A DNA stretch of 64,000 nucleotides from Anaerolineales bacterium. GTDB taxonomy: Bacteria > Chloroflexota > Anaerolineae > Aggregatilineales > UBA2796. Below are positions 5,119 to 51,748 of this stretch, one piece after another. The DNA lies in contig JABTTZ010000002.1 of assembly GCA_015075625.1 (NCBI GenBank), forward strand, positions 248,001 to 312,000, given 5' to 3'. The translations under genes were made by a program, and so were the position numbers. Under the pieces are notes generated by a model that saw only the letters and a list, made by a program, of their open reading frames with translations, was not told the origin of the DNA and searched no databases. Each line of letters opens with the position of its first letter. Position 1 is the stretch's first letter.

Positions 5119-5197
5119 GAGGAAGGTCGCTTTGCCTTCAAGCCCCGCAGGGGTGGCTGATTTCAGCCCGCTGCTTTCGCGTTGGGCGCGATTTTCG

Positions 5198-11285: not shown

Positions 11286-13013
11286 TTAGCGCAAGCTGTT
11301 CAACAGCGTCCGGCTGTTTGTAGAGAACACGCGGTTGTTGTAGACATCCCAGTTGATCGACCAAGTCATCAAGCCCCGGAAGGCTGGATAGCCCGCTGGT
11401 GTGCGCAAGACATACGCCCCGCCGTAGGACTGCCCTTTGACCAGATAGCGTAAGGCACGCTCAATATCGGCACTGGAAGTGTACCCGCCACCAGCCGCGC
11501 CCGGCGCGGCGGGCAAGCCAATGGCTACCTGATCGGGACGTAGGGCGGCGAACACGTTGTTGCTGCCGCTAGGGGCGCTGAACCCATAGAGCAGCATCTC
11601 TGCCATTGCTACTTGGAAATCAGCCGTGCCTTGCGAGTATCCGCGCCCATCCAAGCCCAACATGCTCCCTGAGTTGTAATGCTGAACGTGGACGAGGGTC
11701 AGAATGTCCCGCGTGGCGTGCAAGAGCGGAAGGTACGATCCCCAAATGCCGCCGTAGACACTGAACGCACCTTGTACATTCGCCGTTTCCGGCGCCATCG
11801 TCAAGATGAAATTTGCCCCGAACTGCGCACGAATTTGGCGAATGGCGTAAATCAGGTTGACAACAGGTGCTGATGTGGGATTACGAAGATCAGAATCACC
11901 CGCCCCAAGCGCCACTGAACGCCCCTCAAGGTCAATATCAATGCCATCGAACCCGTAATTCTGCATGATGTTGAGAACAGAGGTGATGAAGTTATTGCGC
12001 ATCGTGACGTTATCAAGGGAGACTTGCCCTTCTGCCCCGCCGATGGAGAGGACGACCTTTTGCCCTCGGCTGTGGAGGAAGGCAACATCGGCGCGGAAAT
12101 CATCGACGCTCTGAATCGCTGGATCGGGGTCAAAGGAAAGCGTTCCCGTGTTGCCCACTGGCACGGCGAAGGCGATGTTCACAATATCCCAATCTGCTGA
12201 GACATTGCGCAGACGCACCCCGCCCGCTTGGTTGATGAAGTTGTGCCAATAGCCGATTAGCAGTTTACTGGTGTTCCCTGGTGGGAGCGTTGGGGAGGCG
12301 GTGAAGGTGGGAGAGGGCGTAAATGTGCGTGAAGGTGTTGCCGAAATGCTTGGGGTGACCGTCGGGGTGAAGGTGCGCGTGAAGGTCGCCGTCAGCGGAG
12401 GTTGCGTTGGGTTGCCGCCACCGTAAACCTGCCAGAGCGCGAGTGTCGTTGCTGGCTCCCACCCAACAAGTGAGGTGTGCGCTTGCAAGCAGCGGTAGGT
12501 CTGCCCTTGATAGGAGACCAACGCACCGGCGGCGTAAGGGGTGTTCGGCTGCCATGCAGCGATGCTTGGTGTGTTTGTGGGCGGACCGAGAGGCGTATTC
12601 GTATTCGTGGGGGTGCGCGTCGGTGTGTTTGTGGCGGTGGTGGTTGGGACGCTCGTGTTTGTTGGAGGAAGGGTATTCGTCGGGATGCTTGTGTTTGTTG
12701 GAGGAAGGGTATTCGTCGGGATGCTTGTGTTTGTCGGGACACTTGTTGGGTTGCTTTGCGTCAGTTCCCACAGAGCGGGAACGTTGGGCGGCTCCCATCC
12801 GGTGAGGGAGGTATGCGCCTGACGGCAGCGGTAAACACTGTTGTTATAGGTGACAAGCTGGTTGACGGCGTAAGCTGTATTGGGCTGCCATGTGGGGGGA
12901 TTGCCTTGTGCATCGGTGTGTGTGGTCTGCCAGAAAAACAACGCACTAAAGACGACTGTGAGGGTGGCGAAGCAGAGAAAAGCGGACTTTGCGGATAGGA
13001 ACTTTTTCAGCAC
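11286..13013 (-). CDS. Secreted chitinase, GH18 with two CBM5/12-type chitin-binding modules
   Basis: A 575-residue extracellular glycoside hydrolase expected to cleave beta-1,4-GlcNAc polymers. A Lys-rich start and hydrophobic stretch (about 11-28) form a signal peptide. Two aromatic-rich modules, 41-83 and 153-196, share WQPNTAYA...YRC-QAHTSL-GWEP, the CBM5/12 pattern. They are joined by Thr/Pro/Ser-rich linkers (about 89-150 and 202-247), and the catalytic barrel begins near 249. The GH18 motif is complete: Asp356-Gly-Ile-Asp359-Ile-Asp361-Leu-Glu363, with Glu363 the proton donor. The barrel also shows KVVLSIGG. The linker DNA carries a 36-base tandem repeat. It is a single gene, convergent with the EamA gene. 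Confidence 0.94.
   Translation of the reverse strand: MLKKFLSAKSAFLCFATLTVVFSALFFWQTTHTDAQGNPPTWQPNTAYAVNQLVTYNNSVYRCRQAHTSLTGWEPPNVPALWELTQSNPTSVPTNTSIPTNTLPPTNTSIPTNTLPPTNTSVPTTTATNTPTRTPTNTNTPLGPPTNTPSIAAWQPNTPYAAGALVSYQGQTYRCLQAHTSLVGWEPATTLALWQVYGGGNPTQPPLTATFTRTFTPTVTPSISATPSRTFTPSPTFTASPTLPPGNTSKLLIGYWHNFINQAGGVRLRNVSADWDIVNIAFAVPVGNTGTLSFDPDPAIQSVDDFRADVAFLHSRGQKVVLSIGGAEGQVSLDNVTMRNNFITSVLNIMQNYGFDGIDIDLEGRSVALGAGDSDLRNPTSAPVVNLIYAIRQIRAQFGANFILTMAPETANVQGAFSVYGGIWGSYLPLLHATRDILTLVHVQHYNSGSMLGLDGRGYSQGTADFQVAMAEMLLYGFSAPSGSNNVFAALRPDQVAIGLPAAPGAAGGGYTSSADIERALRYLVKGQSYGGAYVLRTPAGYPAFRGLMTWSINWDVYNNRVFSTNSRTLLNSLR
12655..12744. repeat. 36-base tandem repeat in the chitinase linker
   Basis: Two identical 36-base units (12655-12690 and 12691-12726) are followed by a partial third unit. 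They encode the 12-residue linker repeat TSIPTNTLPPTN. Unit number could vary between strains through slippage, changing linker length without a frameshift. Confidence 0.85.
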
Positions 13014-30881: not shown

Positions 30882-30898
30882 ATCGCCGTCCGTGAGCG

Positions 30899-30955
30899 CC
30901 CGCCGCTAAAGCAGCGGGCTATGAGTAGCCACCCCTGCGGGACTTGGAAACCCTA
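30899..30955 (+). repeat. CTAAAGC repeat, family B copy 2
   Basis: CCCGCCGCTAAAGCAGCGGGCT forms a small hairpin and is followed by AGCCACCCC and a GGAAACCCTAA tail. The first part is nearly identical to 43183-43204. Confidence 0.7.
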
Positions 30956-43164: not shown

Positions 43165-43231
43165 GGCGGGAGTGCTTATGCTCCCGCCGCTAAAGCAGCG
43201 GGCTGAAAGCAGCCACCCCTTGGGGGTTTAA
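43165..43231. repeat. Hairpin plus CTAAAGC repeat, family B copy 3
   Basis: A perfect 8-base hairpin (GGCGGGAG/CTCCCGCC, 43165-43188) runs straight into CCGCTAAAGCAGCGGGCT...AGCCACCCC, nearly identical to 30902-30935. It lies just after the PFOR gene. Confidence 0.7.
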
Positions 43232-43326
43232 AAGATATATCCACACAGGCAGTTCTACCTTCTTCACCCCCAAAGCATTTTTGCTTGTGCTTAGAGGGAA
43301 CGAAAGGGAACTAAGGAGCTACGGGA

Positions 43327-50361: not shown

Positions 50362-50613
50362 TTAGTCGGCTGGTGGCGGGACGGGCAGTTCTGTTTCGGG
50401 AATGGCTTTGTATTTCTCCCCGATCTCCACCAACATACGCGGGATGCCGTCTACAATCGGGTATTTGCAGCCGCTGTCGTCGCAAACCAACCAGCAGCCA
50501 TGAACAAGGCGGAGTTTGCCGGGGTCGTTGCCCTTATCTTGGTAGTGAACAGCGACAGGGCAGCGTAGAATGGCGAGAAAATCGGGCGCAATGCCTGTAG
50601 GTTTGTTGCTCAT
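50362..50613 (-). CDS. Trm112-like / UPF0434 family protein
   Basis: An 83-residue small zinc-ribbon-like protein. The core FLAILRCPVAVHYQDKGN, CDDSGCKYPIVDGIPRML matches the Trm112/YcaR family, whose eukaryotic members activate methyltransferases. Cysteines are at positions 18, 44 and 49, so one ligand of the usual four appears replaced. It precedes the lipoprotein gene by 20 bases on the same strand. Confidence 0.82.
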   Translation of the reverse strand: MSNKPTGIAPDFLAILRCPVAVHYQDKGNDPGKLRLVHGCWLVCDDSGCKYPIVDGIPRMLVEIGEKYKAIPETELPVPPPAD

Positions 50614-50675
50614 GGGTGATTCTAGTATCCATTTTAGCGCGTTTGCTTCAGATAGCCTGTCAGATTATCAAAACG

Positions 50676-50827
50676 TTAGAGCTTACGCAGTTGACCTTGT
50701 TTCCCCTGTAGTCATCGAAACATCGAAAGGGAATGTTTGAGGGAGCTTCCCCCTCAAACACCTCATTCCCCCTCTCTCCTCGTGGGGAGAGGGGGGTAGG
50801 CGGTGAAGGCAACTGCGTAACGTCTAA
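50676..50827. mobile_element. MITE-like element with 18-base terminal inverted repeats
   Basis: The left end (50676-50693) and the reverse complement of the right end (50810-50827) share TTAGA, two differing bases, then TTACGCAGTTG. The 152-base interior has no gene but holds a C-rich hairpin (50768-50795). It fills most of the spacer between two minus-strand genes. No clear target-site duplication was seen. Confidence 0.6.
50768..50795. repeat. C-rich hairpin repeat, family C copy 3
   Basis: CCCCCTCTCTCC, loop TCGT, then GGGGAGAGGGGG, pairing over 12 bases with one wobble. It is inside the MITE-like element. Confidence 0.55.
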
Positions 50828-50887
50828 AAGTATAACGCAAGTGTAGGGTAAGCACAGAGACAAGACCTCCCACTGGCGCTCCGGCGC

Positions 50888-51748
50888 TTACAACAAGCGA
50901 TAGAGGCGATCCGAAACGTAGAGAACGGCGACCTCCGTCCCAACTTTGGGTAATGCCGTTTTGCGAAGATCGTCGCGGTCTTCGCGCAGGATGCCGATCA
51001 CCTCGCGCTGATCGGGAGTGCGGAATTTGTAATGGAGGGTCACAATGTAGCTTGCTCCGCGCTCTAACGCCTCTGCTTTTGTGATCTCCCCACGCAGCAC
51101 CATGCCCCGCCGTTCAAAGTGACGGTTACGCAGGCTGATAAGGACGGCACGCCCCGTCAGGATTGCCGCTCCTGCCGCCGGCACAATGCCGATGATCAAT
51201 GCCAGATCAAGATCAATGGGGATCAGTTGTTGGAAGGCAAGGGTAGATCGGCGGGGATTTTCTGGGAGGTATTTGATGTAGATCGCCGCCCCCTCGGTGA
51301 ACGCCTCAAAGGTAGCGCGATCTATATCCGCCTCACCGCTGAATGATTCCCCTTGCGCGGTGGTAAAGGCAAAGGTGACCAGCCAACGATCAACTGCCCC
51401 CCGCAAGGACGTTAGTTGCGAGCGCCCGGTGACTGTGGCGGGAAGGGTAATCGCCCGCGCTTCGGCGTCGGCGCTTTGACGGACGGTGCGAACGCCCTCC
51501 AAAACTGCGCCGAAGGTACACAAGGCAGCGATCACCACCGCGCCAAGCGCCACTAACCAATGCCCCCCCAAGCTGACACGATCCCGCGCCGTCCCCTGCA
51601 CGATTCCATACTGATCGTGAACGATGTATGCTGCATCCGGGTTGGGGGCAAGTTTTTTCAGTTCGTCTGCCGCGCCCCCCGTTCCCTTCAAAAGGGAGGA
51701 CTGTGAAGACAGGGGCGATTTTGAGGGGGAGGCGGGTGGTTTTGCCAC
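50888..51748 (-). CDS. DUF3592-like membrane protein
   Basis: A 286-residue protein with two membrane segments (about 65-85 and 182-204). Between them is a beta-rich stretch, ATVTG...WLVTFAFTTAQGESFSGEAD...IYIKYLPENPRRS, the pattern of DUF3592 domains, and a second similar stretch follows the second helix. The function is unknown. The start is GTG 51748, with GGAG seven bases upstream. It begins two bases after the GH13 gene ends and is probably co-translated with it. Confidence 0.75.
   Translation of the reverse strand: MAKPPASPSKSPLSSQSSLLKGTGGAADELKKLAPNPDAAYIVHDQYGIVQGTARDRVSLGGHWLVALGAVVIAALCTFGAVLEGVRTVRQSADAEARAITLPATVTGRSQLTSLRGAVDRWLVTFAFTTAQGESFSGEADIDRATFEAFTEGAAIYIKYLPENPRRSTLAFQQLIPIDLDLALIIGIVPAAGAAILTGRAVLISLRNRHFERRGMVLRGEITKAEALERGASYIVTLHYKFRTPDQREVIGILREDRDDLRKTALPKVGTEVAVLYVSDRLYRLL

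Follow-up and report, generated by a model that had tools for sequence, protein, structure and literature searches.

A MITE family with IS701-type ends in an Anaerolineales bacterium

Results

An element with inverted ends between two genes

The stretch of DNA analysed (the window) comprises 64,000 nucleotides of contig JABTTZ010000002.1 from an Anaerolineales bacterium. Two minus-strand open reading frames, at 50362-50613 and 50888-51748, are separated by a spacer that is filled by a repeat element, as the original prediction had proposed. The inverted repeat on which that prediction was based was re-found at 50676-50693 and 50810-50827 (18 nt, 16 of 18 complementary). The ends were placed by aligning 30 copies of the element with their flanks, and then 45 copies with one type of end (A) and 15 with a second type (B). 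This comparison set the true ends one base further inward on each side, at 50677 (TAG...) and 50826 (...CTA), with 50676 and 50827 belonging to the flank. The copy in the window is therefore 150 bp long (50677-50826, plus strand) and has A-type rather than B-type ends.

Its 17-base inverted ends are near-perfect: the left is TAGAGCTTACGCAGTTG (50677-50693, plus strand) and the right is TAGACGTTACGCAGTTG (50810-50826, minus strand). The core sequence TTACGCAGTTG occurred exactly twice in the window, at the two ends of the element, and when one mismatch was allowed three matches were found compared to 0.7 expected. The element is flanked by an imperfect 5-bp duplication on the plus strand, AACGT at 50672-50676 and AAAGT at 50827-50831, in which four of the five bases are equal; other copies have exact duplications of 5-6 bp. 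Since the same ends recur with target-site duplications in about 100 copies, the inverted ends are not due to chance.

The interior was confirmed to be non-coding, as originally proposed. The only open reading frame across it, 67 aa on the minus strand, translates the hairpins, had no Pfam match and is not a credible gene. Folding gave a stem formed by the inverted ends and two main inner hairpins. Hairpin 1 (TGTTTGAGGGAG...CCCTCAAACA, 50734-50760, plus strand) was seen in the fold, and its loop reads CTT or AAG depending on the copy; this flip (GGGGGCTTCCCCC / GGGGGAAGCCCCC) was present across several lineages in alignment A1. Hairpin 2 (CCCCCTCTCTCC....GGGGAGAGGGGG, 50768-50795, plus strand), which was found by both the inverted-repeat search and the fold, has a C-rich core that also occurs in other genomes with unrelated flanks.

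Bacterial MITEs are short, non-coding elements with inverted ends, target duplications and many copies, and they share their ends with an IS. One such element is Nezha, reportedly described as a MITE of cyanobacteria by Zhou et al. in 2008. The element resembles these MITEs in all of these respects, and at 150 bp it falls within their size range (under about 600 bp, with no transposase).

Copy number and distribution

The original prediction had proposed a genome-wide search for the ends as a check. BLAST of the window copy against its own genome, with the best 40 of 152 candidates scored, gave at least 66 alignments, 43 of which were copies (full or partial forward) at 69-100% identity. A sequence model built from 36 copies matched all 150 of the candidates scored in that genome (E≤1e-5). 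A hand count gave 103 own-genome places among the matches listed, corresponding to approximately 100 dispersed copies.

The model was applied to 13 genomes with 150 candidates scored in each, so that copy numbers are lower bounds, and some of the weaker matches span the interior only. A genome of the same genus (G001) had at least 151 matches at E≤1e-5, numbers like those of the own genome, and G003 had four; there were no matches in the other 10 genomes. In a BLAST search of 61 genomes, the matches outside the genus were limited to the C-rich hairpin part. A scan of named genomes, from which close neighbours of the window's own genome may be missing, found the left 24 bases of the element in one record (JACSRJ010000179.1, MAG Anaerolinea sp. 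CH2), and an exact match to the left-end pattern was not found in viral contigs.

Within the own genome the closest pairs of copies are about 98% identical and the median pair is 70% identical; copies that are up to 98% identical point to recent bursts. The copies from G001, which include tree rows L031 and L038, share differences and mostly form their own cluster in the tree, which indicates that the family expanded after the two species had separated. At the orthologous spot beside the 50362-50613 gene in G001 (L200) there was no element, and the divergence of that genome prevented alignment of the spacer. The window copy lies on a long branch (0.28) and has an 8-base insertion and is thus probably old.

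Target-site duplications and insertion preference

Boundaries of A-type copies were located by a search anchored on TTACGCAGTTG with up to three mismatches; eight of the 68 bounded elements in the end alignment were neither A nor B and were omitted from the duplication counts. Exact duplications of 5 bp flanked 16 of the 45 A-type copies and exact duplications of 6 bp a further seven. In 1000 rounds of a control in which the right flanks were permuted among copies, this total of 23 was compared with counts that averaged 0.6 and reached at most 5. At 21 of the 45 copies, no exact duplication of at least 5 bp was present. When duplications of 5, 6 or 7 bp were counted, they were present at 18 of 36 own-genome and six of nine G001 A-type copies. 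The 15 B-type copies had exact duplications of 7 bp (six copies) or 8 bp (two copies) and none of 5 or 6 bp; the shuffle means were 0.5 and 0.1. One published source (PMC8024623) gives duplications of 4-5 bp for the IS701 family and of 4-9 bp for ISGka1/2; the 5-6 bp observed here is near the former range and within the latter.

The flanks of the copies are 64% A+T, compared to 43% for the window. An open reading frame of at least 150 aa spanned the rejoined flanks at 13 of 51 insertion sites (the A and B copies, out of 60, with sufficiently long flanks) but at 94% of 300 random points in the window. The test is a rough one, because G+C-rich DNA such as this often contains stop-to-stop frames of 150 aa, but both sets were treated alike. 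Insertion avoids genes, and the copies are mostly intergenic.

IS701-type elements share the A-type ends

A search for an IS with the same termini, the other check proposed, found full-length elements with A-type ends (TAGNNNTTACGCAGTTG) in three relatives, one of the same family (G006) and two others (G091 and G146); together with G129, which carries a broken element, these genomes are family and order relatives. The IS in G006 is present in three copies that encode an identical protein, with target-site duplications AAAAT (L141) and TAGAGT (L175). A 5-bp duplication with one mismatch was seen at the IS copies L121 and L124, and there was no clear duplication at the copies in G091 (L123) and G146 (L142).

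All 17 bases of the family's left-end consensus, TAGGACTTACGCAGTTG, agree with the 3' end of the IS in G091 (L123), and in the window copy the right end agrees, likewise over 17 of 17 bases, with the 3' end of the IS in G006 (L141). The 3' terminal repeat of the IS contains the transposase stop codon (GCG-TAA-CGTCTA), and this sequence is retained in the MITE. The likeness is confined to the ends (about 19 bp); subterminal sequence is not shared, and the element, unlike the IS701-family members with the same terminal repeats, has no transposase.

Among the transposases of IS with these ends, P0005-P0007 scored 360-368 bits against the NCBIfam model NF049921 (transpos_IS701_2; cut-off 250) and were under the cut-off of the classical model NF033540. 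The NF049921 cut-off was exceeded by all four of the transposases from these groups that were scored (P0003 to P0007, P0001 left out). When the G006 transposase was compared with 399 genomes, full-length close relatives (at least about 70% identity) were found only in G006, G146, G091 and G129.

No IS with A-type ends was found in the own genome, where the 331-aa transposase query matched only relatives of 33-37% identity, or in G001, where it gave one weak match. The PF01609 search of the own genome gave 16 matches, and no IS bounded by A-type ends was present around these proteins in loci of 3-3.6 kb. Since no A-end IS was found in either genome, the copies in both look orphaned. The original proposal of a non-autonomous element that may be moved by a transposase encoded elsewhere was supported by the many copies and by the IS of G006, G091 and G146, whereas in the element's own genome no such transposase was found. 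Of the transposases encoded near copies, two were rejected as partners: an IS5-type transposase (P0002, L044) that adjoins a copy has its own ends, GAG.GTGTTATG, and the resident IS701_2 transposase (P0001/P0003), to which the loci around copies led, has the ends TAGGACTTTCGC. Relatives of P0003 occur in 25 of 200 genomes including the own genome, and the IS of G006, G091 and G146 are among them.

This resident IS701_2, the nearest own-genome transposase (about 35% identical), could itself have moved the MITE, in which case no lost partner would be needed. Its terminal repeat is TAGGACTTTCGCTT, its several copies are about 97% identical and look recent, the outer TAGGACTT and CGC are common to the MITE, and a relative in G386 with ends of the resident type is flanked by a 5-bp duplication, ACTCG. 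The difficulty lies in the inner half of the terminal repeat, where the resident TTTCGCTT is unlike TTACGCAGTTG, a core that the IS of G006, G091 and G146 match letter for letter. TTTCGC ends were found in none of the 45 A-type copies, an outcome that is favoured by the TTACGCAGTTG-anchored search with up to three mismatches. Furthermore, G001 has the MITE in similar numbers, yet it gave no match to the resident IS. We consider mobilisation by the resident IS unlikely.

The reading that we prefer, with a probability of roughly 0.93, is that the element is a MITE with IS701-type (transpos_IS701_2) ends that was mobilised in trans and whose partner has been lost or is unassembled. We infer transposition itself from the copies, their ends, the duplications and the IS in relatives. 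A DDE transposase from a full-length IS would have acted in trans by binding the ends that contain TTACGCAGTTG, the element would have inserted into A+T-rich, mostly intergenic DNA, and repair of the staggered cut would have left the 5-6-bp duplication. The interior is a double-hairpin segment rather than a shortened transposase gene. Multiplication would have been separate in the own species and its congener, the autonomous partner since having been lost from, or left unassembled in, both genomes, and the window copy would be old and now immobile. This reading would account for a repeat that fills about 100 spacers in a poorly annotated bacterial group, and would link it to one particular family of transposases, members of which persist in relatives.

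A second subfamily and possible exchange of ends

The B subfamily has CTCACC ends (CTCACCTTACGCA) and 7-bp duplications, and its copies are homogeneous (median interior identity of 0.93). Its ends match the CTCAC(C/G)TTACGCA-type ends of a second IS701_2 subgroup, members of which include L105 (G046), L107 (G056) and L113 (G152); L105 has a 7-bp duplication, TTACTAA, the same length as in the B subfamily. A 49-aa piece of the second transposase had relatives in eight other genomes of 200, several of them full-length with ends of this type. The loci around copies also showed that the own genome retains a 304-bp deletion remnant of this subgroup (L099:3058-3361, G000:C4), in which the CTCACCTTACGCAG ends are perfect and both termini of the second transposase are present. 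The remnant is an internally deleted IS701_2 in which the beginning of the transposase gene is joined to its end, a one-step example of the conversion of an IS to a mini-element.

Three copies (L012, L022 and L029) combine A ends with an interior that falls with those of B in the tree (joint group supported at 90/98, from 102 columns only), and two of these, L022 and L029, carry exact 5-bp duplications (ACATT and CTCCT). These sequences suggest an exchange of ends between the specificities of two transposases, which is the simplest reading of the three copies, although gradual divergence or recombination among adjacent copies may be the explanation. In the end alignment L019 and L030 look recombinant. 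We would put somewhat short of an even chance on the fuller proposal that one hairpin interior was given new ends, so that it now carries either A ends (TAG...TTACGCAGTTG, 5-6-bp duplications) or B ends (CTCACCTTACGCA, 7-bp duplications) belonging to two IS701_2 subgroups, and that the copies with A ends and B-like interiors transposed again. The family would thereby escape the loss of one transposase by means of the ends of the other. If real, the exchange would be a naturally occurring case in which a non-autonomous element changes its helper.

Compared to bacterial MITEs such as Nezha, the family differs in that its ends are those of IS701_2, that no partner IS was found in the genome of the host, and that two end types occur on one interior. 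A literature search on Chloroflexi/Anaerolineae repeats, Nezha, IS701 with MITE, chimeric MITEs and the letters ACTTACGCA found no description of this MITE family among the papers listed. The family and its link to IS701_2 appear to be new, as perhaps does the exchange of ends.

Folding and the hairpin module

The fold of the element is very stable (z of -7.8 and -7.5 for the two strands). This stability would suit a selected non-coding element, such as a structured RNA, a REP-like palindrome or a terminator, in which the inverted ends are simply the base of a stem; the mostly intergenic placement and the presence of the hairpin core elsewhere without MITE ends also fit. Such an element would not be expected to have exact duplications of 5-6 or 7 bp flush with its ends, or to share those ends with IS elements. 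Folding of the alignment revealed little covariation (five double-change cells among 837), no Rfam family scored above its gathering threshold for the element, and the terminator scan found no terminator-like T run there. We regard this explanation as highly improbable and retain the MITE reading.

A strict pattern of the hairpin core plus its tail was found in 10 of 399 genomes, and a reversed control was found in none. From these sequences, the core and tail may be a module common to different small elements. In G016, a genome of the same order, the C-rich core and a TAGGGGGTGAGGG tail were seen at L179-L188 beside unrelated ends, CTAGTACAGCGCGGCGG.

Other repeats

The locus L069:2092-4660 (G000:C3) has a long inverted duplication that includes two copies of the element in inverted orientation and bounds about 2.2 kb, with a reductase-like open reading frame and what we take to be RNase P RNA. 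Flanks containing CCTATAATTCGGTGAAGAAGGTA are found again at L019 and L030. In the window itself, a dispersed palindromic repeat (GCCCGCCGCTAAAGCAGCGGGCT...GCAGCCACCCCT) is present in three copies that are 82-85% alike (5137-5189, 30896-30946 and 43180-43232), and three direct tandem units of 36 bp each, a multiple of three, lie at 12636-12743.
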